Shown piece after piece: positions 4,610-30,268 of a stretch of 30,323 bases of DNA (its first letter is position 1; each line of letters begins with the position of its first letter). The translations under genes and the position numbers were made by a program. The notes under the pieces were generated by a model. The model ran no database searches. It had not been told where the DNA came from and was given only the letters and a program-made list of their open reading frames with translations. The stretch comes from a virus. Where the stretch lies: IMG/VR virus record IMGVR_UViG_3300002144_000284, positions 1 through 30,323 of that record; one strand, written 5' to 3'.

Positions 4610-6007
4610 ATGGCATTAAACTTTCCTTCAAACCCAGTAGATGGACAAGCATTTGGAAATTATACCTATAATTCCACAAAGGGTGTTTGGTCAGCTTCTG
4701 CTACCCCTCCAAGATATACAGTTTCTCCAAATATTCCAGCCTCAGCTGGTAATGGTGATGTTTGGTTTAATTCTGAAACCGCAAGATCATATATTTACTA
4801 TGTAGATGCTGATACTGCCCAGTGGGTTGAAATTGGAGGAACAGAGGGAACTCAGGGAGTCTTGCCTTCTCTTGGAGATGCCCCCGACGTTGACGTAACA
4901 GGTCTTGCAGACGGAGACACTCTTGTTTATGATTCTGCCACTAGCAAATGGGTCCCAGGAGAAGCTGGTGGAAAATTTACTGTTTCTGGTACCGCTCCAG
5001 CAGGGGCAGAGAATGGAGATACTTGGTTTAAGTCAGATGATGGAAAAACATATATCTACTACGTCGATGCAGACGGTGGTCAATGGGTAGAGATCGCATC
5101 GAATACCACGGGGTATTTAGACATTGGTCAACTTAATGATGTAACAATTGTTTCTCCTACTACTGGACAAGCATTAACATATAATGGTAGTGGATGGGTT
5201 AATGCTACCCCTGCAAGCACGGTAGGTTCTTTAACCGATACAACAATCTCTACACCAGCAGACGGGCAAGCTCTTGTTTATGATTCTGCTTCTGGTAATT
5301 GGATTAACGCAGCCGCTGCTGGCGGGGTAGAAATTTCAGCTACCGCTCCAGTAGCACCATCACCTGGAGACTTATGGTTTAACTCTACTCAAGCTAAAGT
5401 TTATGTTTATTATGATGATGGAACCTCTTCTCAATGGGTTTCAGCTATTGGTGGACTAGCAGCACAGAGCGGTACCGATGGACAGTTTTTAATTCATGAT
5501 GGCACTGAGTGGGTGGCTTCTGCTTTGGCATCATCTAATATGCCTACTGGAAGTATTTTGCAGGTTGTGTCCACCACTAAGACAGACACCTTTTCAATGG
5601 CATCCGCAACTTTCGCGGATGTAACAGGCTTGTCCGTTTCAATCACGCCTCAAAGCACAAGTTCAAAAATCTTAGTTTCTTATGATGTTCAGACTGGTGG
5701 CCCTGGTTATTCGACTGGTCAGTCAATGCTCAGACTTCTACGCGATTCGACACCTATAGCTATTGGTGATTCTGCGGGTATCAGGATTTTGGCAACCACC
5801 GGAGCTACAAATGGACAAAATGGTTCTAGCGATACAAACAGCGCACACTATCTAGACTCTCCCGCTACCGTCTCTACCCTGACATACAAGATTCAGATAA
5901 GGCAAAGTGTTGGAACAGGATATGTCAACAAAAGCTCGCTAGACGCGGACAACACTTATTATGGGCGAACAGTATCAACCATCACGGTTATGGAGGTGGC
6001 AGGCTAA
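4610..6007 (+). CDS. Modular fibre protein with LNFP N-module and QVVSTTKTDTF C-domain
   Basis: 465 residues; AGGGG at 4599-4603 is a likely SD. Residues 1-30 (MALNFPSNPVDG..F.NYTY..T.GVW) are the first of nine copies in the window of a putative N-terminal anchoring module. Tiles follow: three GD.WF...(Y)YIYYVD.D..QW units (~47-75, ~135-162, ~252-278) alternate with LxDxxI..P.DGQALVYD..W units (~90-116, ~175-198, ~207-232). Residues ~310-465 (MPTGSILQVVSTTKTDTF ... STITVMEVAG) form a distinct C-terminal beta domain that I recognise as common at the ends of aquatic phage fibre proteins. Inferred to be a fibre subunit. The small gene at 6007 overlaps its stop and may encode its chaperone. Confidence 0.8.
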   Translation: MALNFPSNPVDGQAFGNYTYNSTKGVWSASATPPRYTVSPNIPASAGNGDVWFNSETARSYIYYVDADTAQWVEIGGTEGTQGVLPSLGDAPDVDVTGLADGDTLVYDSATSKWVPGEAGGKFTVSGTAPAGAENGDTWFKSDDGKTYIYYVDADGGQWVEIASNTTGYLDIGQLNDVTIVSPTTGQALTYNGSGWVNATPASTVGSLTDTTISTPADGQALVYDSASGNWINAAAAGGVEISATAPVAPSPGDLWFNSTQAKVYVYYDDGTSSQWVSAIGGLAAQSGTDGQFLIHDGTEWVASALASSNMPTGSILQVVSTTKTDTFSMASATFADVTGLSVSITPQSTSSKILVSYDVQTGGPGYSTGQSMLRLLRDSTPIAIGDSAGIRILATTGATNGQNGSSDTNSAHYLDSPATVSTLTYKIQIRQSVGTGYVNKSSLDADNTYYGRTVSTITVMEVAG

Positions 6008-6270
6008 TGGATATTGCAACGATTCTTACCAAGCGTTACCCAGGGTCCGAGTGGACTCTCAACGGTGACAACTACTCAGGGCTGACCTGGCTATCCGACA
6101 CCCCCAAACCAACCCTTGCTGAAATCGAAGGGCATTGGGAAGACGTACAACTAGAAATTGCTACAGAAGCACAATCAAAGATAGATGCTAAAGCTAGTGC
6201 AATTAGTAAACTACAAGCTCTTGGATTAACTGTTGAAGAAGTACAGGTTGCTTTCGGTTTGGAGGCATAA
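6007..6270 (+). CDS. Small XkdW-like or fibre-chaperone-like protein
   Basis: 87 residues, started by a TAATG overlap with the fibre gene and preceded by GGAGG. The pattern YPG..W.L.GD.Y..L.W......PT..E (~10-42) followed by a charged helix (~45-70) and a small KLQALGLT.EEV..AFGL C-terminal helix pair resembles XkdW-like and other short proteins placed after phage fibre genes, often regarded as assembly chaperones. The family assignment comes from sequence feel and position and is moderate. It is the only copy in the window and sits between a fibre with a C-terminal beta domain and a fused N-module/glycine-rich protein. Confidence 0.6.
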   Translation: MDIATILTKRYPGSEWTLNGDNYSGLTWLSDTPKPTLAEIEGHWEDVQLEIATEAQSKIDAKASAISKLQALGLTVEEVQVAFGLEA

Positions 6271-7262
6271 TGACTAACATAAACTTTCCTAATAGTCCTG
6301 TAGATCAAGAAGTGTTTGGTGATCATATTTGGAACGATACCGTTGGTATTTGGGAATGGTATGTTTTGCCTGGAAACACTACCGCTGAGGATTTGCTATT
6401 AGCTGGAGAGGTTATTTCCTACGAGTTAGATTTTTTTGTTGTGTCTGGTGGTGGAGCCGGAGGCGGCTATGTCGGAGGGGGTGGTGGAGCTGGAGGGATC
6501 CTACAGTCATCTGCTCCAGCGGGTGGGGCATTGCCCAGTTCTTTTAGTTTGTCTATTGGTGCAGGGGCACCAAGCGCCGCAGCGAGCGGTTCTTCTTCAA
6601 CATTTGTCGTTTCTCCAGTCGGAGGCGGAAGAGGTGGAACAGGTGGAAATGCATACCAGTATGCACCAACAACAGGAGGTTCTGGCGGTGGTGGCGGTTC
6701 TACAGATGCTCATTTAACGGGACAAAATGGAACAACTGGACAGGGAAACAGGGGGGGTAATTCACCGGGAAACTCTGGTTGGTTTACTAGTGGCGGTGGT
6801 GGTGGAGCTGGAGAAGTAGGACAAACCCCAGCAACAACTTCTTCCGTTGGGGGCAACGGTGGGGCAGGAATTTCAAACAACTGGACTGGTGAAACTTTTT
6901 ATTATGGAGGCGGCGGTGGTGGTAGTTATGCAGCCGCAAACTCTTCATCGCTCAAAGGGCAAGGAGGTCTTGGTGGAGGAGGAGACGGAGGGTTGCACGA
7001 ATATGGAAGTGGTGCAACACTAGTTTCCCCAGGCAATGGGTCTACTAATACCGGTGGGGGCGGTGGTGGTGCTCATATAGTAGGAGTTTCGGCGTCAACA
7101 TCTTCTGGAGGATCTGGAGTAGTAATTTTTAGAGCTTCCACAAGTGCTGTAGTTTCTTTCTCAGTAGGCCTTACCGAAGCCAACGGCGGTGTTGGCCAAA
7201 CCGTAGGTGCCTATAAAGTATACACCGTAACAGCAGGAACAGGAACAGTAACTATTTCTTAA
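6270..7262 (+). CDS. Fused N-module and glycine-rich adhesin 3
   Basis: 330 residues, TAATG overlap with the upstream gene, with TTGGAGG as SD. Residues 1-30 (MTNINFPNSPVDQEVFG...W.DT.GIW) are a diverged copy of the LNFP N-module. It passes almost directly into the glycine-rich body from ~50 (LDFFVVSGGGAGGG) without intervening YIYY tiles, the shortest fused architecture in the set. After SGVVIFRAS comes a C-terminal extension of ~35 residues ending KVYTVTAGTGTVTIS, shared in form with 7278, 8665 and 16939. Inferred role: receptor-binding adhesin joined to its own anchor. Confidence 0.8.
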   Translation: MTNINFPNSPVDQEVFGDHIWNDTVGIWEWYVLPGNTTAEDLLLAGEVISYELDFFVVSGGGAGGGYVGGGGGAGGILQSSAPAGGALPSSFSLSIGAGAPSAAASGSSSTFVVSPVGGGRGGTGGNAYQYAPTTGGSGGGGGSTDAHLTGQNGTTGQGNRGGNSPGNSGWFTSGGGGGAGEVGQTPATTSSVGGNGGAGISNNWTGETFYYGGGGGGSYAAANSSSLKGQGGLGGGGDGGLHEYGSGATLVSPGNGSTNTGGGGGGAHIVGVSASTSSGGSGVVIFRASTSAVVSFSVGLTEANGGVGQTVGAYKVYTVTAGTGTVTIS

Positions 7263-7271
7263 TGGTATAAT
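7263..7271 (+). promoter_or_regulatory. Extended -10 promoter, leaderless arrangement
   Basis: TGGTATAAT, a full extended -10 box (TGnTATAAT), begins just after the upstream stop. Six bases separate it from ATG 7278, so transcription starting ~7 nt downstream would begin at or next to the start codon. There is no SD and no convincing -35 at 16-18 nt. Confidence 0.7.
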
Positions 7272-18293: not shown

Positions 18294-18710
18294 ATGGTTG
18301 CTTTAGATTTTCCATCAACACCGTCTAATGGTCAAGTATTTGGTCAGTATGTTTACGACGGTACAAAGGCAGTTTGGCGTTTAAACCCTGAAACACCAAA
18401 TGCTAATTTGGATAATCTTAATGATGTAACTATTACTACACCAACTGATGGACAGGCTTTAGTTTTTGACTCTGCTTCGGGAGATTGGATCAATGAGACC
18501 CCAGCATCAACTGTTGATAGTTTAACTGATACAACTATTAGCGGACCAGCCTCGGGAGAATCTTTGATCTATAACGGTTCTGCATGGGTTAATGATGCAA
18601 CCATTATCAATACAGACGGCGATCCTGGAACTAAAATTTATGTGGGAGCAACAGACCCATCTATTGCATATACTTTGCAAGCAGGGGATTTGTGGATTGA
18701 GACACCATAA
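18294..18710 (+). CDS. Modular fibre protein with N-module
   Basis: 138 residues. N-module 1-32 (MVALDFPSTPSNGQVFGQYVYDGT.AVW), two tiles (LNDVTITTPTDGQALVFDS, ~42-60; LTDTTISGPASGESLIYNG, ~78-96) and a C-terminal segment PGTKIYVGATDPS..YTLQAGDLWIETP (~107-138) that is a partial form of the GD.W tile and is not seen elsewhere here. The next gene overlaps its stop and encodes the glycine-rich partner. A weak SD (AGAGG) lies ~10 bases upstream; no -10 box at the usual place, so likely cotranscribed with 17900. Confidence 0.78.
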   Translation: MVALDFPSTPSNGQVFGQYVYDGTKAVWRLNPETPNANLDNLNDVTITTPTDGQALVFDSASGDWINETPASTVDSLTDTTISGPASGESLIYNGSAWVNDATIINTDGDPGTKIYVGATDPSIAYTLQAGDLWIETP

Positions 18711-19546
18711 TGGTAACTAACGCAAAAATTTGGAGTGGTTCTGCCTGGATTACAACTGAAGATGTAGATGCCACCATAAGCTCTAACGGAACAGCTGTTA
18801 CCTCTGGTGGATATGAGTACCACACATTTACAAGCTCAGGAAGCTTGACTGTCCAAAGATCTGGAAAAGTAGAGGTGCTTCTCATTGGCGGTGGCGGGGG
18901 TGGCGGCTCCGGTGGTGGTGGTGGTGGTGGTGCGGGGCAGGTATTTAATGATTTTGTAGTTTTAGAGGCTGGAACATATTCAGTAAACGTAGGTGCTGGA
19001 AGTCCTGGGACTTGCTCTACTAGAGGCTCTGACACCTTTATTGGCACAGGAGTAAATCCAGGACAAAATTTTGCCATTTCTTTTGGTAGCGGTTCTGGAT
19101 GCGCGGGCTATCAGCAACAAGTTGATAAGGGTGGGGCTAGTGGCTCAGGTGGAAGTATTTATGAGGCTGGAGGCTTCCCACTTTTGAATAATACATTCTA
19201 TGGAAATGCTGGAGGCAACGGTCAGTACGTAGAAGGTGGCGGTGGCGGTGGTGGAGCAGGGGGTGCTGGTGGAAACTCTACATCAAGCGTTAGCGGTGTA
19301 GGAGGGGTTGGCACGTCTGCTTATTCAGCCTGGGGGCTTGCCACAACAACTGGACAAAATGTTTCTGGAACCGTATATTATGGAGGCGGCGGATCGGGAA
19401 GCGCATACAACGGACAAGTTAGCATTAGCGCTGGTGGGCTAGGTGGCGGTGGGGCAAACTCTGCTGGTCTTGTCAATACTGGCGGTGGTGGCTCCAACGG
19501 TAATGGCGGTGGCTCAGGTTTGGCCATTATTAGAGTTCCTGTATAA
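18710..19546 (+). CDS. Glycine-rich adhesin-like protein 10
   Basis: 278 residues, TAATG overlap with 18294. The short N-terminus MVTNAKIWSGSAWITTEDVD reads like a continuation of the tile proteins. The lead-in GYEYHTF is at ~36, then VEVLLIGGGGGGGSGGGGGGG and a glycine-rich body with loops such as CAGYQQQVDKG, ending SGLAIIRVPV. No FTAGT extension. The last codons carry the first of two overlapping TATAAT boxes that precede the sulfur cassette. Inferred adhesin. Confidence 0.8.
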   Translation: MVTNAKIWSGSAWITTEDVDATISSNGTAVTSGGYEYHTFTSSGSLTVQRSGKVEVLLIGGGGGGGSGGGGGGGAGQVFNDFVVLEAGTYSVNVGAGSPGTCSTRGSDTFIGTGVNPGQNFAISFGSGSGCAGYQQQVDKGGASGSGGSIYEAGGFPLLNNTFYGNAGGNGQYVEGGGGGGGAGGAGGNSTSSVSGVGGVGTSAYSAWGLATTTGQNVSGTVYYGGGGSGSAYNGQVSISAGGLGGGGANSAGLVNTGGGGSNGNGGGSGLAIIRVPV

Positions 19547-19555
19547 TGCTATAAT
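19547..19555 (+). promoter_or_regulatory. Extended -10 promoter of the sulfur cassette, leaderless
   Basis: TGCTATAAT, a perfect extended -10, five bases before GTG 19561. A second TATAAT lies eight bases upstream (19542-19547) overlapping the upstream stop. No SD is present before the GTG, so a leaderless transcript starting at GTG is expected. Confidence 0.68.
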
Positions 19556-19560
19556 TTATA

Positions 19561-20304
19561 GTGTCAAATAAAAAATACTTTTTTCTATCTGGAATTCCAA
19601 GGTCCGGCAGTACTCTGCTTGCCTCTATACTAAATCAAAATCCAGAAATATATGTCTCGGCAGAATCTCCACTGCCAGAAATTATGCAATCTGTTTGCAA
19701 TCAATATGTAAGCAATCAAAATCTAGATCACGATAGGTCTAAAGATATACATAATGTTCTTGATAACCTTATGCCATTTTTTTATGCAGGGCATCAGGAA
19801 AAGTATATTATAGATAAAAGCTTTTTATGGATTGAGCCAGAGCCCTATGCACTATTAGAAAAACATCTTCAAAACAAAGTTAAGATTATTTGTACAGTTA
19901 GGAATCCCCTAGAAACATTTGCTTCTTGGCATAGAGTCTCTAATAGTAATCAAACTCCTGACGAGATTGCGTCTTTTTTTCAACAAGATTTTTTTAACGG
20001 AATATCTAACATGAAAAGAATAATTAGTGACGGAAAATCAGACAGCATCCTGATTATTGAATACAACGACATTGTTGAAAACACAGAAAAGACAATTAAC
20101 GACGTTTATAATTTTTTAGAAATAACAAAGTTTTCACATGACTTTTTAAATATTTTAAATCCTCATAAATATAATGACGCTTCAGGAATAAAGGGGCAGC
20201 ACTTTGTAAGACCACAAATTCACAAAGAGACCTATGATTTGGAAAAGATGTTCTCATCTGATACAATAAAAAAATACTCTGGTTTAGAGTTTTGGAAAGA
20301 GTAA
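19561..20304 (+). CDS. PAPS-dependent sulfotransferase
   Basis: 247 residues, GTG start. It transfers sulfuryl groups from PAPS to an unknown acceptor. The 5'-phosphosulfate-binding loop is at ~10-20 (SGIPRSGSTLL) and the 3'-phosphate-binding motif at ~111-124 (CTVRNPLETFASWH, with Arg114 and Ser122). EYNDIVENTEKTINDVYNFL (~167-186) matches the usual conserved E/RY.D.......T...V..FL element, and GQHFVRP (~212-218) lies where PAPS-dependent enzymes have a base-contacting loop. The length fits the Sulfotransfer_3 type. No signal peptide or membrane segment, so cytoplasmic. The coding region is markedly AT-rich beside the glycine-rich genes. The next gene starts one base after its stop and probably supplies PAPS. 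Acceptor unknown. Confidence 0.85.
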   Translation: MSNKKYFFLSGIPRSGSTLLASILNQNPEIYVSAESPLPEIMQSVCNQYVSNQNLDHDRSKDIHNVLDNLMPFFYAGHQEKYIIDKSFLWIEPEPYALLEKHLQNKVKIICTVRNPLETFASWHRVSNSNQTPDEIASFFQQDFFNGISNMKRIISDGKSDSILIIEYNDIVENTEKTINDVYNFLEITKFSHDFLNILNPHKYNDASGIKGQHFVRPQIHKETYDLEKMFSSDTIKKYSGLEFWKE

Positions 20305-20305
20305 A

Positions 20306-21061
20306 ATGATCATTGTAATTTCTGGTTTGCCCGGAGCTGGTAAAACTTCGCTAGCAAAAGAAATATCTCGGAGAACAAACTCCATACATTTAAATGCTGA
20401 CGACATTAGATCAGACCTAAGTTCCGATCTTGGGTTCTCTGTTGAAGATCGTAAAGAGCAGGCAAGAAGGCTCGGGGCTGTGGCGAGGCTTTTGTCTAAC
20501 CAGAATCAAGTCGTTGTTGTTGACTTTGTAAATCCAACAGAAGATACCAGGAAGGCCTTTGGCAAGCTGGACTACTTTGTCTGGGTAGATAGAATAAAGC
20601 ATAGTAGATTTGAAGACACTAATTCTATCTGGAAAGATCCATCAGTTTTTGATTTAAAAATTTCTAATGGGCAGACTGTTGAAGAAGAAGCAATGCTAGT
20701 TCTTTCTGGGTGTAATTTATATGACTGGACAGAGCCCACCACCCTGATGCTAGGCAGATATCAGCCTTGGCATGAAGGGCATGAGGCCCTTAAGCAAGAA
20801 GCCTTAAATAGAACAGGCCAGGTTCTGATTGGAATTAGGAATACACATGCTACATCCGAAAAAGATCCACTTCCATATGAAGAAGTAGTTAAATATATAA
20901 ACCGGTTTAATAGTCAGGGTAGCCATCTAGTAATGAAGCTCCCCAACATTACTAATATTATTTATGGCAGAGACGTGGGGTATAAGATTGAGCAAGTTAA
21001 TCTGTCCCCAGAAATTCAAGCTATATCAGCAACACAAAAACGTAAAGAGATGGGCATATGA
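20306..21061 (+). CDS. APS kinase fused to an HxGH nucleotidyltransferase domain
   Basis: 251 residues. N-terminal P-loop kinase domain: Walker A GLPGAGKT (7-14), LNADDIRSDLSSDLGFS (29-45) in the position of the CysC L(D)GD..R..L..DLGFS region, EDRKEQARRLGAVA (47-60), DFVNPTEDTR (73-82) and RFEDTN (101-106). This is the APS-kinase (CysC) pattern in the form carried by aquatic phages. C-terminal domain (~140-251): GRYQPWHEGH (150-159) is the HxGH signature and ISATQKR (240-246) the second signature of the nucleotidyltransferase superfamily, close in style to NMN adenylyltransferase. Kinase product: PAPS. The second domain may make an adenylylated precursor, possibly APS, but its substrate is inferred only. 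Confidence 0.82.
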   Translation: MIIVISGLPGAGKTSLAKEISRRTNSIHLNADDIRSDLSSDLGFSVEDRKEQARRLGAVARLLSNQNQVVVVDFVNPTEDTRKAFGKLDYFVWVDRIKHSRFEDTNSIWKDPSVFDLKISNGQTVEEEAMLVLSGCNLYDWTEPTTLMLGRYQPWHEGHEALKQEALNRTGQVLIGIRNTHATSEKDPLPYEEVVKYINRFNSQGSHLVMKLPNITNIIYGRDVGYKIEQVNLSPEIQAISATQKRKEMGI

Positions 21062-21261
21062 CAAGGGTAGAATCACTAATTAAATCAATTGTATACAGAC
21101 TGTTTGGAACAATAGCAACATTCTTGATCGCACTATTCTTTACTGGTGAATTTTTTATTGCAACTGGAATAGCTATGGTAGAACTTATAATAAAAACAGC
21201 TTTGTATTATTTTTATGAAAGATTTTGGAATTTGGTTTCCTGGGAAAGACATAAAAAGTAA
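21058..21261 (+). CDS. Small DUF2061-like membrane protein
   Basis: 67 residues, ATGA overlap with the kinase gene, so translationally coupled. The pattern ES..K...YR..GT..T.....FTG....A..I...E...K...YY.YER.W is that of DUF2061 (COG3205): two adjacent hydrophobic segments at ~13-29 and ~31-50, then a basic tail (WERHKK). DUF2061 has no established function. Its coupling to an APS kinase suggests a role in sulfate supply, APS/PAPS handling or placing the sulfation at the membrane; this is inference. Short but complete for the family. Confidence 0.75.
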   Translation: MTRVESLIKSIVYRLFGTIATFLIALFFTGEFFIATGIAMVELIIKTALYYFYERFWNLVSWERHKK

Positions 21262-21267
21262 ACGTAG

Positions 21268-21276
21268 TGCTATAAT
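21268..21276 (+). promoter_or_regulatory. Extended -10 promoter, leaderless arrangement
   Basis: TGCTATAAT, a perfect extended -10 identical to that of the sulfur cassette, six bases before ATG 21283. No SD. Confidence 0.7.
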
Positions 21277-21282
21277 TAATAC

Positions 21283-22239
21283 ATGCCTTTTTTCCCTTCT
21301 TTTGCCAGGTTCCGTGGAATTACTGCGGGTAAGATTATTACTATGGAAGCAACTGGTGGTAATCAAACTTTTGATGTTGTAGTTGATGGTAAAACATATA
21401 GAACACATGTGTTTAGTTCAACTGGTTTACAAAAACTTAATGTAACAAGAAAAGCAAATTCTCAAGAATATAGCACACTTGAATGTCTTGTTATTGCTGG
21501 TGGTGGGGGTGGTGGCTATGCAGAAAACTATAATATTAATCCATCTGGTGGAGGTGGTGGAGGTGGTGGAGGTATTGTAAATTCACAATACTTCGTTACC
21601 TCTAATTCTGTAAATATTTTTGTTGGAGCTGGTGGCGCAACTTCTGGTCACGGCGTAAGCGGAGCAAGCTCTTATGTTGGAGAGTCTGGAGTCTTTAATC
21701 TAACTGCTTTAGGCGGAGGAGGTGGTGGAGCTGGTGACGGTGTAAACGGAACAGCTGCTGGTGGAGCCAATTTTCCAGAAAATGGCTATGTAAGAGGTGC
21801 AGACGGAGGCTCTGGTGGTGGTGGTGGTAGGGCTGGCAATAGAGGTTTTGGATTACAGCCGTCATATATTTATCCAGGCTTTGGAAATGATGGGTATGCT
21901 GGTCAGGGTACTGGTGCAGGAACTGTCTCACCAGCTGGTGTTGGCAAGAATGGTGGTGGTGGTGGTGGTGCTGGGGCCGCTGGCAGCGGTCGCTCTGGCG
22001 GGGTTGGACTAGTTTATAATTGGCACAACGCTTCGCAAACTTCTTCTCTTTTTGCAACTGGTGGAACGGGCGGCAGCATGAGTGGCCGAGCAGTTGGACC
22101 AAGTGCCCCCAACAATACTGGAAGTGGTGGAAGTGGTGGTAGTGGCCCCCATCCCCGAAATCAATATGGACCAAGCATTCCCGGTGGCTCTGGCGGTAGT
22201 GGAATCGTAGTAGTTCGTTATCGTATTGATACTGATTAA
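21283..22239 (+). CDS. Glycine-rich adhesin-like protein 11
   Basis: 318 residues. The N-terminus MPFFPSFARFRGITAGKI has no N-module. The lead-in KTYRTHVF is at ~38, then LECLVIAGGGGGGYAEN, a glycine-rich body with long GGGGGGGGG runs and Tyr/Asn/His-bearing loops, ending SGIVVVRYRIDTD. It stands alone between the sulfur cassette and the very large structural gene. The start is placed by the -10 box and the absence of earlier in-frame ATGs after the upstream stop. Inferred adhesin; its anchor partner is not obvious. Confidence 0.78.
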   Translation: MPFFPSFARFRGITAGKIITMEATGGNQTFDVVVDGKTYRTHVFSSTGLQKLNVTRKANSQEYSTLECLVIAGGGGGGYAENYNINPSGGGGGGGGGIVNSQYFVTSNSVNIFVGAGGATSGHGVSGASSYVGESGVFNLTALGGGGGGAGDGVNGTAAGGANFPENGYVRGADGGSGGGGGRAGNRGFGLQPSYIYPGFGNDGYAGQGTGAGTVSPAGVGKNGGGGGGAGAAGSGRSGGVGLVYNWHNASQTSSLFATGGTGGSMSGRAVGPSAPNNTGSGGSGGSGPHPRNQYGPSIPGGSGGSGIVVVRYRIDTD

Positions 22240-22282: not shown

Positions 22283-25200
22283 ATGACTAATTCCCTAAAT
22301 CTATACGCCACAAAAGTTTTTTCAGAGCAACCAATTGCTCTATGGGCGTTAGATGACACTACTGACTATGTAGCTCTAGTTGATTCTGCTAACCAAGATT
22401 TATCTAATTGGACAGTGACTGGTGCAACTGTTGTTGACGCTACCGACGAATTAGAGTTTACAGAAACCCCACCATTAGCCCCGTTTAGCGCCGTAGCTGT
22501 TAATGGTCTTATTGAAGAGAACGCTAACTCTGGGGTAATTAATCTAACTAGCCCACAAGCCCTACAGCCATCCGACCTTAATGCTAATCTTGGATCTGTA
22601 GCCTTGGGTTCATACTTTTTTACATATGACAAAAGTGTTACAATTACCTTTGGTTTTGATTATCTTGATCCAACAAGTGAAACTCCGTTAGAAGTCTTAT
22701 CTGTGGAGAAGTCTCAATTCCTACAGGCTACCCCTGAAAGAGCGTGGGCATTCATATCACAGACTTTTAGTTTGCCAGATAATTTTGCTGATCTAACTTT
22801 TAAAATTAAAATAAGCTATACCGTTGGCGTAGACCCATACGAGGTCGTTGTTCATGGAATCAACGCTGGGCAGTGGGCGGAAGAGTTCTACGTAGAGTCA
22901 ATGGGTACTACTCCAGAACCTTTGCCAGCAAGTATTCCTATTTCATCAAATGGAATACCAGCCTTAGCTTATGGACTAGAGGGGGCTAATGGCTATTACT
23001 TATCAAGTGACAATGTTCTTTATGCTAAAAACTCTGGACTACCCTTGGTTTATGGAGCATTCAATAGTACTGTTATTTTTCCCAATACAAATGCTCCATC
23101 CCTAATCCTTCCAGGTTACGGGGTAATGAATGAGTCTGGACAATATAAAAACTATACAGTAGAGTTCTGGGCAAAGATACAGTGCAACACTTTTGAGCAG
23201 AGAAGAATCTTTGGTCCAATAACATCAACAGATGGTCTCTATGTAGAGGGAGCCTTTCTAAAGCTAAAGATTGGAAATCAGACTGGATCTCACTACGTTG
23301 GTGAATGGGACAGGCCAATGCTAATAAACATTAGGCTGACAGATTCATTTGCAAGACTTGTTGTTAATGGAGAACAAGTAGTTTCTTTTGAAATAGACCC
23401 CGATCAGATATCCTTTCCAGCTAAAACAAGTGCTCTTGGAAAAGACCAGGACTGGCTAGGCTTCTACGCCTACAGCGATGTCCCGCTAATTCAGCTTGAC
23501 TGTGTCGGAATCTACCCATACGAAGTTCCGTCTGTTGTTTCTAAAAGACGTTTTGTCTATGGTCAGGGTGTAGAGCAGCCAGATAACATTAAAGGCCTTA
23601 ACTCAACAAACAATGTTTTTATTGATTTTCCATTTTCTAAAACAACAAAAAGCTACTCTTATCCAAAGATTGGACAGTGGAGTGGTGGCGTTGTAGAAAA
23701 CGTTCTGCCAAATGCTCAATCTCTTTCTTTGCCAGAATATACCTTACCAAAAATTAACTTTAATAATAAAACATTAGATGATTGGTATTCCGATCTTGCT
23801 TCAGAGCAGGGAGATTTTGTTGTAGAAAACACAGCCGAGTATGTCAGCACAGCGGTTGCAACTGATAGCACAAACGGGACCGTATTTGACAGAAGCCTTA
23901 CGGTTCACGGTCTAAAAATTGTGGTGGCAGGTGCAGTCGGAGGACAGCTAGCGGTCCCAACGGTGTGGGCAGAAAAGGCGGGCAAGGTTGTTCAGCTTCT
24001 TACTAACCCAACTGATCCACAAATCAACCTAACTTACCAAAAAAGATTAATAGCAACCCTTAAGGGGGAGGCTGGAACCTATCACGCAGGGCTTCCATCG
24101 GCACAAAGAGTTGCCTATGGAGGCGGGGATTCGTATGACCCAAATTTTCTGTCAGATACTGGTGCACCACAATACGCAGGGTATGTTGACTTTCTAGATA
24201 CCCATGCTGTCAATGACATGGTGTGGTACAAAAACACTAGTGGTCCAGACCCAAGCACAAGCGACAGAGATATTGAAGAAATTATAGAACACTTATTCCA
24301 CACAATACATAATTTTGGAGTTCAGGGGGCGGTTCCAGGCAGCGAAAATCAAGTTGTGATGGACTCAGACCGAAGGTTTGACCTAGACAACTCTTTTGAC
24401 TGGACGCAAACAGAACTTCATCTAGCAATGAAAGAAGCCATCACTGCTGGAAAATTTGACCCAAGCGGCTACTCAACAACATACGACACTGACCCAGGAG
24501 CAGCAGCTGTTGCATATAAAGAGTACACGTACCTCCTCAACTGGGGGATGTGGAGCATGAGTCAGTTCTGGGACGGAGGCTCTCTCGCCCCAGAGTGGGC
24601 AGACGACATGCGCACGCCAGAAGGAATTGCAACCAACAACCCGCTGGGGCATGCACTATTTGTTAAATACTTTCAGCCAGTACTATCTAAGCCTAATTTT
24701 ACAACACTTCAAAGCATCTTTCAGGACAACGATGCGGGTGCCTCGCAGTACACGCCAAGCTCTCTGGGGTTTGGTGGGTCAAATCAAGGCGTTTCTGACT
24801 ATTTTATAAAGCTTAAGCCAAACGCTTCTTGGGATTCTACAGGCGGGTACATGCTCTTTGATAACTTTAATCTATTAACATCTGAAACAAAGGGCTTTTA
24901 TGGAATTTTTACACTAGAAGAGCTTAGCGCAGAAGAAGAAATTCTTTTTGAATTACTTAATGAGACTGTTGGCAGCAAGTTATCGATTGTTCTTGTAAAT
25001 TCCAACATTGAGTATCGATTAACATATAAAAATCCAAACGGTACATCTTCACAAGAAGTAATATATAGTTCTACTGGGCATGTCGTAAATGGAAAATTTT
25101 TAGTAGGATTGCATATACCAAAATTTACAGAATACTATGGTCAAAAGGTTGCTTCATTTTTTGGGTCTAAGCAAAAAATTAAAATGTTTGTGGGGGGTAA

Positions 25201-26866
25201 TGCTTCATTCACCAAGACTTATAGTGGAAGTTTTTCTAAAATAGCTTTTTGTACAAGCAGAAATTTAAGTAAGATTGATTCCTACTTCACGGTTAGAGGA
25301 ATTCCTACAGACTTTGAAAACGTTTTTGATTTCTTTGGTCAGGGTGTAGATTACGACGGTGGTAATTTATATTTTGGTGATGATGTTGATGCAAATGGAG
25401 ATGCCCAGTTTCCAATTCCCTCATACTGGTCTGCAATATTGGACGGGGGAGATCCTTTTGATTTCCCCGCAACAAATAAAGAGACCCATAATGCAAGCTA
25501 TACACTTATTCCAAAAGTAAGTATCGGTGAATACATGCTTGATATTGGAGTAGATTCTTATTGGGAAGACTACCTTCCTCTCAGTTATTTTGGAGGGTAC
25601 GTTCCAAACAATAAAAATGAAAAAGAGTTTGTTCTAGATTTCTTACAGCTAAATATTGATTACCCAAAGTTTAATATTTTTTCTGGGGATAACTTTGACA
25701 CTACAAATTCCCCAATCAAAACGTATGTTTCTTTTCAATATATTGCGTCAGGAGCCAACACTTCTTATGCTTCTTTTAGTAGTCCAGAGCCATTGTCTAA
25801 AACTGGGGTCGTGGCTCCAGGAACAGATTGGTTAAGTAAAAAATATGAGGTCTTGGATGATACCATTATCTACCCGCCAAAGGGAGTAGACTTTAAAAAA
25901 GTTTCAATAAACATCCACATAGAACTAAACGTCGAGGGCATCAGGTCTAACCCCTTTAGGATTAAATCTCTAAGGCTCTCTTCTCAGGCACTGGGGCCGT
26001 CTCCAAAAAAGATTGGGACACGGTTTGGTTCAGATATCATTCCCTACAGGAAAGTAAGCACCGCATTTGATTACAAGAATGTAAGCCCTTTTAGCATTTA
26101 TAAGGGGAGTACTCCATACTTATACAACACTTCCAGTAGTGGCATCAGAATTAGAGATAGCTATACGTCTTACGGAAACCGTGGGCTCTCAATGCCAATT
26201 AATCAAAATGCTGCGTCTTTCTTTAAGGTTAGTGCCCTGCAGATAGCCATGAGGTATGACGAACCAACATTCTCTTATTCACCAGTACAAATTTTTGAAT
26301 TACAGCATGCAGATGATTTGATTAGTTTTTATTTGGTGGCAGATAGTGATAGTCAAAATCGTGGAAGAATCTATGCCATAAATCAAACTACGGGATCCTT
26401 ACAGCCTGGAATTTCTTATTATCTAAATGGACGTGTTGTAAAGAATCCGGTTCTATATCCAAACTCCTGGTCAATGCTTGGTATGTCATTTGATACTCCG
26501 ATTAGTTTTGCTAATTTTTCTGGGGCCTTTAGAGTAACCAATCCTATCCTATTCAACAGCTTCTCCTACTACCAAACTACAGAGGCGGACGAAGCCGCTC
26601 AGTATTCTTTCCGTAAGTGGTTTGCGGTAAGGTCAGAGCCAGACAACCCCCTAGAGTGGGATAACTGGGACGAGTCTCTCTGGAGCGAGGTATTGTTCTT
26701 GGCACAAACAGACCCAGTCGTATTAGACCCAGCAAAAATTTATAAACAATATACAGGAACTGACCGTATAGTTGTAGAAAGCGGATCTGTCTTTAGACTT
26801 AATAACTATCAGTACAGCTCATTTAACCAGCTAAAGTGGAACAGGCAAATCCTAGATTCAGCATAG
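22283..26866 (+). CDS. Very large LamG-containing structural protein with inserted domain
   Basis: 1527 residues. The N-terminus (YATKVFSEQPIALWALDD, ~8-25) is the kind of opening seen in phage LamG-like minor structural proteins. Residues ~285-415 (YTVEFWAKIQ ... LVVNGEQVVSFE) look like a concanavalin/LamG beta sandwich; more beta-rich segments follow from ~840, with a second LamG-like stretch possible near 1370-1450. Residues ~535-820 differ: helical, richer in G+C at the DNA level, with EEIIEHLFHTIHNFG (H670, H673, H676), H601, H641, and WDGGSLAPEWADDMRTPEG (763-781). I recognise similar domains in marine bacterial secreted proteins but cannot name the family; metal binding is plausible. 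Inferred tail-surface protein that may bind or cleave host polymers. Confidence 0.7.
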   Translation: MTNSLNLYATKVFSEQPIALWALDDTTDYVALVDSANQDLSNWTVTGATVVDATDELEFTETPPLAPFSAVAVNGLIEENANSGVINLTSPQALQPSDLNANLGSVALGSYFFTYDKSVTITFGFDYLDPTSETPLEVLSVEKSQFLQATPERAWAFISQTFSLPDNFADLTFKIKISYTVGVDPYEVVVHGINAGQWAEEFYVESMGTTPEPLPASIPISSNGIPALAYGLEGANGYYLSSDNVLYAKNSGLPLVYGAFNSTVIFPNTNAPSLILPGYGVMNESGQYKNYTVEFWAKIQCNTFEQRRIFGPITSTDGLYVEGAFLKLKIGNQTGSHYVGEWDRPMLINIRLTDSFARLVVNGEQVVSFEIDPDQISFPAKTSALGKDQDWLGFYAYSDVPLIQLDCVGIYPYEVPSVVSKRRFVYGQGVEQPDNIKGLNSTNNVFIDFPFSKTTKSYSYPKIGQWSGGVVENVLPNAQSLSLPEYTLPKINFNNKTLDDWYSDLASEQGDFVVENTAEYVSTAVATDSTNGTVFDRSLTVHGLKIVVAGAVGGQLAVPTVWAEKAGKVVQLLTNPTDPQINLTYQKRLIATLKGEAGTYHAGLPSAQRVAYGGGDSYDPNFLSDTGAPQYAGYVDFLDTHAVNDMVWYKNTSGPDPSTSDRDIEEIIEHLFHTIHNFGVQGAVPGSENQVVMDSDRRFDLDNSFDWTQTELHLAMKEAITAGKFDPSGYSTTYDTDPGAAAVAYKEYTYLLNWGMWSMSQFWDGGSLAPEWADDMRTPEGIATNNPLGHALFVKYFQPVLSKPNFTTLQSIFQDNDAGASQYTPSSLGFGGSNQGVSDYFIKLKPNASWDSTGGYMLFDNFNLLTSETKGFYGIFTLEELSAEEEILFELLNETVGSKLSIVLVNSNIEYRLTYKNPNGTSSQEVIYSSTGHVVNGKFLVGLHIPKFTEYYGQKVASFFGSKQKIKMFVGGNASFTKTYSGSFSKIAFCTSRNLSKIDSYFTVRGIPTDFENVFDFFGQGVDYDGGNLYFGDDVDANGDAQFPIPSYWSAILDGGDPFDFPATNKETHNASYTLIPKVSIGEYMLDIGVDSYWEDYLPLSYFGGYVPNNKNEKEFVLDFLQLNIDYPKFNIFSGDNFDTTNSPIKTYVSFQYIASGANTSYASFSSPEPLSKTGVVAPGTDWLSKKYEVLDDTIIYPPKGVDFKKVSINIHIELNVEGIRSNPFRIKSLRLSSQALGPSPKKIGTRFGSDIIPYRKVSTAFDYKNVSPFSIYKGSTPYLYNTSSSGIRIRDSYTSYGNRGLSMPINQNAASFFKVSALQIAMRYDEPTFSYSPVQIFELQHADDLISFYLVADSDSQNRGRIYAINQTTGSLQPGISYYLNGRVVKNPVLYPNSWSMLGMSFDTPISFANFSGAFRVTNPILFNSFSYYQTTEADEAAQYSFRKWFAVRSEPDNPLEWDNWDESLWSEVLFLAQTDPVVLDPAKIYKQYTGTDRIVVESGSVFRLNNYQYSSFNQLKWNRQILDSA

Positions 26867-27265: not shown

Positions 27266-28866
27266 TGTCAGAATATATTGTTCACGCAAATGTTCCAGAA
27301 TTTGAAAAAGAAGAAGATATTTTTAAGAAGCAAGACCCATTCATTAAAAGCTGGGATGATCTTAAAAACTTTTCAAGTCTAGATCTTAATTTTAAACGTC
27401 GTTCTACAAGGATGGCTAAGGCCTTGCAGATGCCACCAACAGACCAGTACCTTTCAAATGCTAGGACATTCCAGTCTGGACAAGATGGAGCACGCTCTAA
27501 AGAAATTAATCCAGGAGACGTGTTTCGTAATGGATACGGAATGTTTGATGTCATCACACCACCTTGGAACTTATACGAACTTGCAAACTACTATGACACA
27601 TCCTTTGCTAACCACGCTGCCATTGATGCCAAGGTAGAAAATATTGTTGGTCTTGGATATGACTTCCACGTCTCACAAAGCACAATGCTACGTCTTGAAA
27701 CAAATGAAAATCCAGAAGCAGTAAAGCGTGCTCGTAATCGTATTGAGCGTGCCAAGATTGAATTGCGTGAATGGATTGAAAGCCTAAACGATGATGAATC
27801 ATTTACAGAAACCTTAAATAAATTTTATACAGATGTGCAAGCCACAGGAAATGGATACTTAGAAATTGGAAGAACGACTAAGGGAGAGATCGGTTACATT
27901 GGACATATCCCATCTACTACAATGCGGGTGCGCAGATTGCGTGACGGGTACGTACAGATAATTGGAAACAAGGTTGTCTACTTTAGAAACTTCGGGGCAA
28001 AGAACCAAAACCCTATCACAACCGATACACGACCAAATGAGATTATTCATTATAAAGAATACTCTCCACTAAACACGTTCTATGGTGTTCCTGATATTAT
28101 GTCTGCCGTGGCTTCTTTGCACGGAGATCAGCTAGCTTCGCAGTACAACATTGATTACTTTGGAAACAAAGGTGTGCCACGCTACATCGTAACTCTTAAG
28201 GGTGCTAAGCTGTCGTCTGATGCAGAGGATAAGATGTTCCGATTCTTGCAAACAAGTCTTAAAGGACAATCCCACCGAACACTTTACATTCCTCTTCCTG
28301 GTGATACGGAAAACAATAAAGTAGAGTTTAAGATGGAGCCCATTGAGAATGGGGTACAGGAAGCATCGTTCAAGGAGTATCGTAAGCAGAACCGTGATGA
28401 GATTCTCATTGCCCACCAGGTACCGTTGTCTAAGATTGGTGGTGGAGACTCCTCCGCGATCGCCTCAGCTTTGGCACAAGACAGAACCTTTAAAGAACAG
28501 GTTGCACGTCCAGCACAGAAGAACATTGAAAAAATTCTTAACCGTGTTGTTAAAGAACGTACAGACATTCTTGAATTAAAGTTTAATGAACTAACCCTGA
28601 CAGATGAGATTGCACAATCTCAAATTCTGGAACGGTATGTAAAGACTCAGGTCATGACGCCTAACGAGGCACGCCAACAGCTTGGCTTGCCACAGAGACC
28701 AGATGGGGATGACCCATTTGAAATGTCCACTCGTCAGGCTACCGACATGAGGGCAAACACCGCTCAGAATAGAGCACGCGATGCAGAGAGAACAAACAAT
28801 CAGTCCGATGGACCCGCCGCTATTACTGGGCGGAATCCTCAAGGTGAAGGCTCTGCTTCAGAATAA
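27265..28866 (+). CDS. Portal protein, PBSX/XkdE type
   Basis: 533 residues. It forms the dodecameric head vertex through which DNA is packaged. Conserved elements of the PBSX-type portal family are visible: PPWNLYELANYYDTSFANHAAIDAKVENIVGLGYDF (97-132; cited here by position), NKFYTDVQATGNGYLEIGR (~184-202), EIIHYKEYSPLNTFYGVP (~258-275), SQYNIDYFGNKGVPRYIV (~291-308), and HQVPLSKIGG followed by SSAIASALAQDR.FKE (~385-410). The C-terminal ~50 residues are low-complexity and polar, usual for the family. TAATG overlap with the small upstream gene; the protease gene follows after its own promoter. Confidence 0.9.
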   Translation: MSEYIVHANVPEFEKEEDIFKKQDPFIKSWDDLKNFSSLDLNFKRRSTRMAKALQMPPTDQYLSNARTFQSGQDGARSKEINPGDVFRNGYGMFDVITPPWNLYELANYYDTSFANHAAIDAKVENIVGLGYDFHVSQSTMLRLETNENPEAVKRARNRIERAKIELREWIESLNDDESFTETLNKFYTDVQATGNGYLEIGRTTKGEIGYIGHIPSTTMRVRRLRDGYVQIIGNKVVYFRNFGAKNQNPITTDTRPNEIIHYKEYSPLNTFYGVPDIMSAVASLHGDQLASQYNIDYFGNKGVPRYIVTLKGAKLSSDAEDKMFRFLQTSLKGQSHRTLYIPLPGDTENNKVEFKMEPIENGVQEASFKEYRKQNRDEILIAHQVPLSKIGGGDSSAIASALAQDRTFKEQVARPAQKNIEKILNRVVKERTDILELKFNELTLTDEIAQSQILERYVKTQVMTPNEARQQLGLPQRPDGDDPFEMSTRQATDMRANTAQNRARDAERTNNQSDGPAAITGRNPQGEGSASE

Positions 28867-28877
28867 TGTTGTTTTTT

Positions 28878-28906
28878 TAAACAATGTTATAAAAAGGTTA
28901 TATAAT
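28878..28906 (+). promoter_or_regulatory. Promoter of the protease-scaffold gene
   Basis: TAAACA (28878-28883) and a perfect TATAAT (28901-28906) are 17 bp apart, the clearest -35/-10 pair in the window. GGAG (28907-28910) follows at once and ATG 28916 is nine bases from the box. An AT-only inverted repeat, TTGTTT/AAACAA (28869-28874 and 28879-28884), overlaps the -35. Confidence 0.6.
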
Positions 28907-28915
28907 GGAGTTAGT

Positions 28916-30268
28916 ATGACTATTATCAAAGCCCATTGGGATACCGAAGGCGACTCAGTTCGCCTATCTATGCCGTTCGCAAAAGTCGATAAAGACAGGC
29001 GAATGGTTTCTGGTTTTGCTACGCTAGATAACGTAGACAAGCAAAATGATATTGTTACTACCGAAGCATCTCTAGATGCTTTTTCAAGATTTCGAGGGAA
29101 CATCCGTGAGATGCACCAACCCTCTGCCGTAGGGAAAATGGTCTCATTCAAACAGGACAAGCACTTTGATCCAGATACCAAGAAGTTCTATAGTGGCGTT
29201 TATGTTTCTGCATATGTTTCTAAGGGTGCTCAGGATACTTGGGAAAAGGTTCTGGATGGTACTTACACAGGTTTTTCAATTGGCGGTAAGATGTTAAAGT
29301 GGGATGATGCATACGACGAGAAGGTTGATACACAGATTCGTATTATTAAACAATATGATTTGGTAGAGCTTTCTCTTGTCGACTCCCCCGCAAATCAGTT
29401 TGCTAGCATTATTTCAATTGAGAAGTTGGCTGACAGCGATGTCCTTAGGGGCGACGGTGTTGCTGATTTAGAAAATGTGTTCTGGGATTCAGACTCTGGG
29501 CTGGTCATACTGTCTGATGATGAATCCGAGAATCACCCAGTGTCAGGTTCATCGATGCAGAACATTGGTTTTGTAGAAAAAACAGATGATAAAAAAACTG
29601 ACATGATTAAGTTCTTAGTTGATAGTGCTAAAGGCATGAATCTTTCTAAGATGACAGAGGAGGTAAATCCTATGACTGAAACAACAGAAGAAATCACAGA
29701 GAAATCTGATGAGATCGTTGAAGAGGTAGAGGTCGCTCCAGAGGCAGATGCCGAAACTGAAGAAGTTGTGGAAGAGGAAGTTGCTGAAGAAGCAGCTCCC
29801 GTTGACCCCGCTGAGGCTGAGGTTGAAGAGACTGAGGCTGAAGACGTTGACGCTGAAAAAGCTGACGTCATCGACGCTGAAGTTGAAAAGGCTGACGCTA
29901 TCGAGGCAGAAGAAGGGGTCGCCAAGTCCGACGATGTAGCTGTTGCTAGCGCAGTAGCTGACATTAAGGATGTCCTCTCATCAGCCTTTAGCGATCTTGC
30001 AGAAACCGTTAAGTCTCTTCACGAGCAGGTTAATGCATTAAACAAATCAATTACTGGTGTATCCGAAGAGTTGGCAGCTACTAAAAATGAAGTTGCTGAA
30101 GCTAAGGGCCATTTTGATGAATTTGGTAAGCGTGTCGATGCTGTTGAGCATGACACAGCTTTCCGCAAGTCTGGCGATCTAGGCGAGATCGTGCAGGAAC
30201 AGCCAGAAATGGTTGAAAAATCCCTATGGGGCGGTCGTTTCCTCAAAACTGCCGACTTATTTAAATAA
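28916..30268 (+). CDS. XkdF-type prohead protease fused to acidic scaffold
   Basis: 450 residues from ATG 28916; an upstream in-frame ATG at 28781 lies within the portal gene and before the promoter, so I reject it. The N-terminal ~170 residues are the serine protease (Peptidase_S78_2/XkdF type): FATLDNVDKQNDIV (34-47), REMHQPSAVGK (64-74, His67), TYTGFSIGGK (116-125, Ser121) and LVELSLVDSPANQ (149-161). It matures the prohead by cleaving scaffold and itself. Residues ~250-330 are strongly acidic (runs of Glu/Ala/Val), and ~335-420 a long coiled-coil-like helix, as expected for internal scaffold. The end, SLWGGRFL, is compact. A strong internal SD before Met253 may give a separate scaffold. 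Confidence 0.88.
   Translation: MTIIKAHWDTEGDSVRLSMPFAKVDKDRRMVSGFATLDNVDKQNDIVTTEASLDAFSRFRGNIREMHQPSAVGKMVSFKQDKHFDPDTKKFYSGVYVSAYVSKGAQDTWEKVLDGTYTGFSIGGKMLKWDDAYDEKVDTQIRIIKQYDLVELSLVDSPANQFASIISIEKLADSDVLRGDGVADLENVFWDSDSGLVILSDDESENHPVSGSSMQNIGFVEKTDDKKTDMIKFLVDSAKGMNLSKMTEEVNPMTETTEEITEKSDEIVEEVEVAPEADAETEEVVEEEVAEEAAPVDPAEAEVEETEAEDVDAEKADVIDAEVEKADAIEAEEGVAKSDDVAVASAVADIKDVLSSAFSDLAETVKSLHEQVNALNKSITGVSEELAATKNEVAEAKGHFDEFGKRVDAVEHDTAFRKSGDLGEIVQEQPEMVEKSLWGGRFLKTADLFK
29656..29674 (+). promoter_or_regulatory. Internal SD and start codon for a nested scaffold
   Basis: AGAGGAGGT (29656-29664) lies before ATG 29672 with eight bases between GGAGG and the ATG. The ATG is in the same frame as the protease and falls where the protease domain and linker end and the acidic scaffold begins. 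Confidence 0.6.
29672..30268 (+). CDS. Nested scaffold protein (internal start)
   Basis: 198 residues, identical to the C-terminal part of the protease-scaffold gene, starting MTETTEEITEKSDE. It would consist only of the acidic region, the coiled coil and the SLWGGRFL end, i.e. a stand-alone scaffold. The arrangement parallels the nested scaffold of lambda (C/Nu3), where scaffold is made in excess over the protease. Support is the strong SD and the position at the domain border; expression is not shown by sequence alone. Confidence 0.55.
   Translation: MTETTEEITEKSDEIVEEVEVAPEADAETEEVVEEEVAEEAAPVDPAEAEVEETEAEDVDAEKADVIDAEVEKADAIEAEEGVAKSDDVAVASAVADIKDVLSSAFSDLAETVKSLHEQVNALNKSITGVSEELAATKNEVAEAKGHFDEFGKRVDAVEHDTAFRKSGDLGEIVQEQPEMVEKSLWGGRFLKTADLFK

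Follow-up and report, generated by a model that had tools for sequence, protein, structure and literature searches.

A phage-borne gene cassette that may make and use PAPS, and a putative very small PAPS synthetase with relatives in SAR11 bacteria

What might a phage do with genes for sulfate activation and transfer lying among its tail-fibre and glycine-rich genes? The record analysed here, a viral stretch of 30,323 bases (the window), contains tail-fibre and glycine-rich genes followed by portal and protease genes. Situated between two Gly_rich_2 genes are three co-directional ORFs on the + strand, encoding a sulfotransferase, a kinase/nucleotidyltransferase fusion and a DUF2061 protein (Table 1), all of which score above the Pfam cut-offs. 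A preliminary description had called these tightly coupled genes flanked by glycine-rich ones, and the ORFs, their 4-nt overlap and the Gly_rich_2 flanks agree with that view. It had also proposed that the three could together make PAPS and use it. This proposal is supported by linkage, motifs, fold and fusions, although the function is still a predicted one, and we consider it probable that the locus is a portable sulfation cassette in which the 251-residue fusion would make PAPS from sulfate and the sulfotransferase would use it. A search of a phage collection with the window DNA gave no near match. Elsewhere in the window, a 1527-residue ORF (22283-26866) has no PHROG match and is present in relatives in copies of 32-85% identity. 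The protease ORF (28781-30268) and the portal ORF share 86 nt, and the alignments of many relatives to the former begin only around residue 30, so that the true protease start probably lies downstream.

Table 1. Positions of the cassette genes, their motifs and flanking elements in the window.
Feature	Position	Strand	Remarks
Upstream flank, glycine-rich (Gly_rich_2) gene	18710..19546	+	Pfam; L242 has a copy (86% identical) that is not followed by a cassette
Extended -10-like motif TGCTATAATT	19547..19556	+	Before sulfotransferase; one of seven TGNTATAATT copies
PAPS-type sulfotransferase	19561..20304	+	GTG start, 247 aa; Pfam and PHROG
5'-phosphosulfate-binding loop GIPRSGSTLL (residues 11-20)	19591..19620	+	G11, R14, G16 and T18 invariant in 14 aligned sequences
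3'-phosphate-binding motif RNPLETFAS (R114..S122)	19900..19926	+	R114 and S122 shared by all 14 sequences of the alignment
APS-kinase-like/nucleotidyltransferase fusion	20306..21061	+	251 aa; proposed mini PAPS synthetase
Kinase domain, residues 1-139	20306..20722	+	APS kinase fold, shortened lid
P-loop GLPGAGKT	20324..20347	+	G10, G12 and K13 invariant in 32 aligned sequences
Nucleotidyltransferase domain, residues 140-251	20723..21058	+	Proposed minimal sulfate adenylyltransferase, ~110 aa
Nucleotide-binding motif GRYQPWHEGH (HxGH)	20753..20782	+	R151, Q153, H156 and H159 invariant in 32 sequences
GRD loop (YGRDVGY; G221-R222-D223)	20966..20974	+	Invariant in 32 aligned phage and bacterial sequences
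SATxxR motif	21026..21043	+	S241, A242 and R246 invariant; T243 in 30/32
DUF2061 small membrane protein	21058..21261	+	67 aa; 4-nt overlap with fusion ORF
Second TGCTATAATT copy	21268..21277	+	Precedes next glycine-rich gene; closes cassette
Downstream flank, glycine-rich (Gly_rich_2) gene	21283..22239	+	Pfam; 78% identical copy after L081 cassette too

The first protein of the cassette matches both Sulfotransfer_1 (PF00685, E=4e-16) and Sulfotransfer_3 (PF13469, E=7e-15) in Pfam and, among PHROGs, phrog_27463 (E=4e-54). The two PAPS-binding motifs attributed to it beforehand are both present and conserved. Searching IMG/VR for its relatives yielded matches with an alignment as query and none with the single sequence. 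Around residues 130-150 the window protein, like that of L067, lacks a stretch of some 25-30 residues found in most relatives.

The fusion, too, was correctly recognised in the preliminary description: a single 251-residue ORF matches the Pfam APS_kinase family (PF01583) over residues 2-84 (E=1e-18; 67.9 bits against a cut-off of 21.1) and CTP_transf_like over residues 148-201, while its full length matches phrog_10255, annotated 'kinase'. An AF2 model of the whole chain has a pLDDT of 91.7 and a pTM of 0.84, with residues 1-139 modelled at high confidence. Superposition of this kinase model using VIA-align placed it nearest to Mycobacterium tuberculosis CysC (PDB code 4rfv; Z 19.7, rmsd 1.5 over 127 residues), compared to Z scores of 16.4 for gluconate kinase and 13.4 for shikimate kinase. 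Residues R35, F44 and R49, invariant in 32 aligned phage and bacterial sequences, align with the APS-binding residues of Penicillium chrysogenum APS kinase. The lid segment DPKGLY..FTGIDxPYE is short by around 20 residues, leaving only a weak FTGIDSPYQ-like remnant, RFEDTNSIWKDP, and Gln or His mostly takes the place of the conserved Asn. The shortened lid, and a score of 61.7 bits that falls under the 138.7 cut-off of the APS kinase equivalog TIGR00455, are the reasons for the name 'APS-kinase-like' used here. Nevertheless, family, fold and residues all lend good support to the prediction that this half phosphorylates APS to PAPS.

The C-terminal half is less readily assigned. By sequence its nearest relatives are NMN adenylyltransferases (PDB code 2qjt, E=9e-11), although the score against the corresponding profile, TIGR01527, is just 20.4 bits, under a cut-off of 181.2. 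By fold, VIA-align gave Z scores of 10.6 for PPAT and around 9 for NMNAT, and ATP sulfurylase was not among the best 50 matches listed for the isolated domain; Foldseek, given the same domain, returned ATP sulfurylases among weak matches with E values of 0.01-0.02. The modelled fold is thus that of a minimal adenylyltransferase in the neighbourhood of PPAT and NMNAT, from which ATP sulfurylase is not separated. The ATP sulfurylase motifs, including the QxRN loop, have been defined previously (PMC3779200). That loop is absent from the domain, where GRYQ stands in its place, and the SGTxxR motif reads SATxxR, with Ala for Gly throughout the family alignment. PF01747 (ATP sulfurylase Sat) is not among the 25 Pfam matches listed, and when the domain was aligned with hhalign to four canonical ATP sulfurylases, just three short motifs matched, without significance. 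The assignment of a substrate is therefore carried by genomic context rather than by sequence and fold. In a rival reading, the kinase would make PAPS from APS of the host for the sulfotransferase, with the nucleotidyltransferase serving another purpose, for example NMN- or pantetheine-type adenylyl transfer, or acting as a regulatory domain. The affinity to NMNAT and PPAT in both sequence and fold, as well as the missing QxRN, favour such a role, as does the presence of a canonical Sat or CysD in 5 of the 10 bacterial genomes that hold the family. We nonetheless regard it as unlikely in view of the bacterial relatives.

In two OCS116 genomes (G008 and G170) a complete, canonical APS kinase carries the nucleotidyltransferase domain at its N-terminus. 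Loci with this type of fusion are L099 (positions 5977-6909), L311 and L101, which comprise OCS116 bacteria and a MAG labelled Gammaproteobacteria. Neither Sat nor CysD was found in any of 18 genomes of the OCS116 family. An APS kinase would be useless without a source of APS, and the fused domain is the obvious candidate for that source. A second line of evidence comes from SAR11, members of which are among the most abundant heterotrophs of the ocean. Among 99 Pelagibacteraceae genomes, 37 have both the domain and aprA, 10 have the domain alone, 6 aprA alone and 46 neither (Fisher p=5e-12, a value spanning related genomes and loci rather than independent events, many of the genomes being incomplete), and 19 copies of the domain lie within 6 kb of aprA. 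Both known ATP sulfurylases, Sat and CysD, are missing from 40 of the 43 aprA-bearing genomes, and 34 of these 40 have the domain. In SAR11 (L102 and G010-G108) the domain co-occurs with and often adjoins aprBA, while known ATP sulfurylases are mostly absent. In 11 of 12 SAR11 loci examined the kinase and transferase halves are encoded by two neighbouring ORFs, and in 11 of 12 SAR11 copies GRG replaces GRD. Candidatus Pelagibacter ubique has been described as possessing AprBA and lacking sat and cysDNC (PMC5069961), and a 2025 study terms the pathways incomplete (PMC12636525).

Two observations, that the domain is joined to a canonical APS kinase where the genome has no detected ATP sulfurylase and that in SAR11 it co-occurs with aprA, are hard to explain except through an activity that forms or uses APS, and they speak against an NMN- or pantetheine-type or regulatory role. 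We therefore lean, somewhat cautiously, towards the domain being a third kind of ATP sulfurylase of around 110 residues, outside Sat and CysDN and common to aquatic phages, SAR11 and other bacteria. Together with its APS-kinase-like partner it would constitute a very small PAPS synthetase feeding phage sulfotransferases, and in SAR11 it would be the partner that AprBA lacks, converting sulfite-derived APS to sulfate. Bacterial copies also lie beside sulfotransferases at three loci (L092, L096 and L098), with one upstream in a fourth (L090). On a phage-like contig binned as Flavobacteriaceae (L104, positions 5616-7112) the kinase, nucleotidyltransferase and sulfotransferase are consecutive genes.

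Among viruses, relatives of the fusion number at least 599 in IMG/VR, and 82 viral loci were studied, namely the window and 81 others taken from IMG/VR. Two types of sulfotransferase recur beside the kinase, that of the window and one with the motif HIPKTAG. Of 80 kinase loci (0.97 Mb), 25 have one or the other, compared to 1 among 79 controls (1.02 Mb) from related phages, anchored on the protease of the window phage; since viral loci share ancestry, these linkage counts measure association and not independent events. The sole exception among the controls, L244, itself carries all three cassette genes. Of 26 such sulfotransferase genes, 24 are no further than 1.5 kb from the kinase, a figure reached by 0 of 20,000 random placements. 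Conversely, 18 of 80 loci found through the sulfotransferase alone hold the kinase, mostly no more than 20 nt past the sulfotransferase stop codon. The same three genes, followed by a glycine-rich gene, appear in the order of the window at both L081 and L244, so that the trio is indeed linked in related phages.

These neighbourhoods bear on two further explanations. Phage cysC genes from freshwater and marine phages have been read as assisting assimilatory sulfate reduction (PMC10914622, PMC8190135), and the freshwater cases (PMC10914622) lend some plausibility to the present kinase being an auxiliary metabolic cysC that boosts that pathway in the host. However, the recurring neighbours are sulfotransferases and DUF2061, none of the annotated genes next to the kinase was recognisable as a PAPS reductase, and the nucleotidyltransferase half would have no explanation; this makes the assimilatory reading very improbable. 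Only a little less improbable, in our judgement, is that the fusion first phosphorylates a metabolite that contains no sulfur and next activates it by nucleotidyl transfer, as NadR or CDP-choline enzymes do, its sulfotransferase being a chance or separate neighbour. The logic of a kinase followed by a nucleotidyltransferase suits this idea, GRYQPWHEGH resembles the NMNAT signature, and some phages have the fusion with no sulfotransferase: neither of the two types is present in 55 of the 80 kinase loci, and Stenotrophomonas phages Suzuki and DLP_6, which carry distant relatives of the kinase, have neither DUF2061 nor a sulfotransferase of either type nearby. Against it stand the APS kinase fold with its invariant APS-site residues and the tight linkage to sulfotransferases in both directions of searching.

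Returning to the sulfation cassette, its third member was confirmed as the DUF2061-like membrane protein of the preliminary description by a match to PF09834 (E=9e-19; 68.2 bits against a cut-off of 23.1). DUF2061 adjoins the kinase in 75 of the 82 viral loci, mostly within 110 nt, and the genes around such kinase/DUF2061 pairs differ greatly among many loci. Of three Pseudomonadota genomes (L145, L148 and L146), two have DUF2061 joined to the C-terminal end of CysN and one has it near cysH-cysC; the link to sulfate in Pseudomonadota is a partial one, as at around 18 of 21 places DUF2061 is apart from recognisable sulfate-activation genes. A role as membrane partner in sulfate activation may be inferred. 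A larger block recurs around the kinase/DUF2061 pair in L008, L010, L015, L016, L025, L026, L031, L036, L037 and L061; read from sequence, it contains a luciferase-like monooxygenase, a HIPKTAG-type sulfotransferase and oxygenase-like and tryptophan-halogenase-like genes, and is perhaps a modification pathway.

Two arguments for a separate origin and control of the cassette fared less well. An extended -10 promoter of its own had been proposed, and the motif at 19547 is real. However, TGNTATAATT occurs in seven exact copies on the + strand (positions 7263, 11527, 16077, 17873, 19547, 21268 and 26869) and in none on the - strand, against 0.3 copies predicted by dinucleotide shuffles, and each copy is 10-57 nt ahead of a gene start. 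It is consequently a recurring element of the phage, which looks like its promoter element, and the proposal of a promoter private to the cassette is not upheld; the copies at 19547 and 21268 bracket the cassette. The former ends just 4 nt before the sulfotransferase GTG, so the mRNA of that gene may be leaderless. The cassette had also been taken for an acquired unit because it is AT-rich. GC contents of the sulfotransferase, fusion and DUF2061 ORFs are 0.32, 0.41 and 0.29, but their third-position values of 0.27, 0.35 and 0.22 lie within the range of the other window genes (0.21-0.49). The low GC relative to neighbours stems from the glycine codons of the latter, and base composition is thereby rejected as a sign of acquisition. 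Acquisition as such is backed by other evidence: in L242, a close relative, another glycine-rich gene sits at that site and there is no cassette. Alongside the presence of the cassette in L081 and L244, this speaks for its being gained or lost as a whole.

The mechanism that we propose runs as follows. The C-terminal nucleotidyltransferase domain would transfer the AMP of ATP to sulfate, giving APS; the N-terminal APS-kinase-like domain would phosphorylate APS to PAPS; and the sulfotransferase would pass the sulfuryl group of PAPS to an acceptor, most probably a surface or fibre glycan. The DUF2061 protein perhaps anchors the enzyme at the membrane or aids sulfate supply. As regards the acceptor, the phage's own fibres had been suggested from the position of the cassette, but the varied surroundings of kinase/DUF2061 pairs elsewhere give this idea little backing. 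A glycosyltransferase-like gene, read from its sequence, is directly upstream of the sulfotransferase in L081 and L244 and is at least as suggestive of a glycan as of the fibres. How much tyrosine the glycine-rich proteins contain did not point clearly to an acceptor, and a glycan seems the better guess.

If the proposal is true, phages own a self-sufficient route to sulfated molecules, and phage genes named 'cysC' would need re-reading in terms of sulfation and not of sulfate reduction. The same domain would also explain how SAR11 can have an APS reductase and no recognised ATP sulfurylase. In the open-access literature searched, we found no report linking phage cysC to sulfotransferases or describing the fused domain.

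Comparison with known systems helps to define what is new. The phage cysC auxiliary genes reported earlier (PMC10914622, PMC8190135) are APS-kinase genes too, whereas those described here are linked to sulfotransferases and DUF2061 and include a fused nucleotidyltransferase domain. Phage sulfotransferases are themselves already known, with unclear function (PMC10580990). Those of cyanophages S-SKS1 and S-SRM01 are 30% and 28% identical to the window protein over nearly its full length but, unlike in the window, no annotated kinase gene adjoins that of S-SKS1. The best PDB sequence match of the sulfotransferase is protein-tyrosine sulfotransferase (TPST), a weak and partial one (E=0.005) that includes the 5'-phosphosulfate-binding loop. 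With APS kinase CysC (4rfv, PF01583) the kinase half shares the P-loop, DxxR, DLGFS..DR and FxxP; it differs in lacking the lid segment DPKGLYKKA... and in bearing the nucleotidyltransferase. In the latter, HxxH, the GRD loop and an S[GA]TxxR-type motif, here SATxxR, follow one another as they do in Sat (PF01747), although QxRN and a clear GxxKxxD loop are missing, it is only around 110 residues long and the Sat profile is unmatched. It has the same fold as archaeal-type NMN adenylyltransferase (NadM, 2qjt/1f9a), to which its first half is closest in sequence, and is set apart from it by the GRD...SATxxR end and by linkage to APS genes. The nearest parallel for the whole is human PAPS synthetase PAPSS1 (1x6v), in which an N-terminal APS kinase and a C-terminal nucleotidyltransferase are likewise joined in one chain. 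Fusion residues 1-250 align in order to PAPSS1 53-596, a loose whole-chain match with a global rmsd of 15.6. PAPSS1 has 586 resolved residues compared to the 251 of the phage protein, which has no canonical ATP sulfurylase domain; the fusion would thus be a PAPS synthetase of 251 residues in the human domain order, its ATP-sulfurylase-like half only about 110 residues long.
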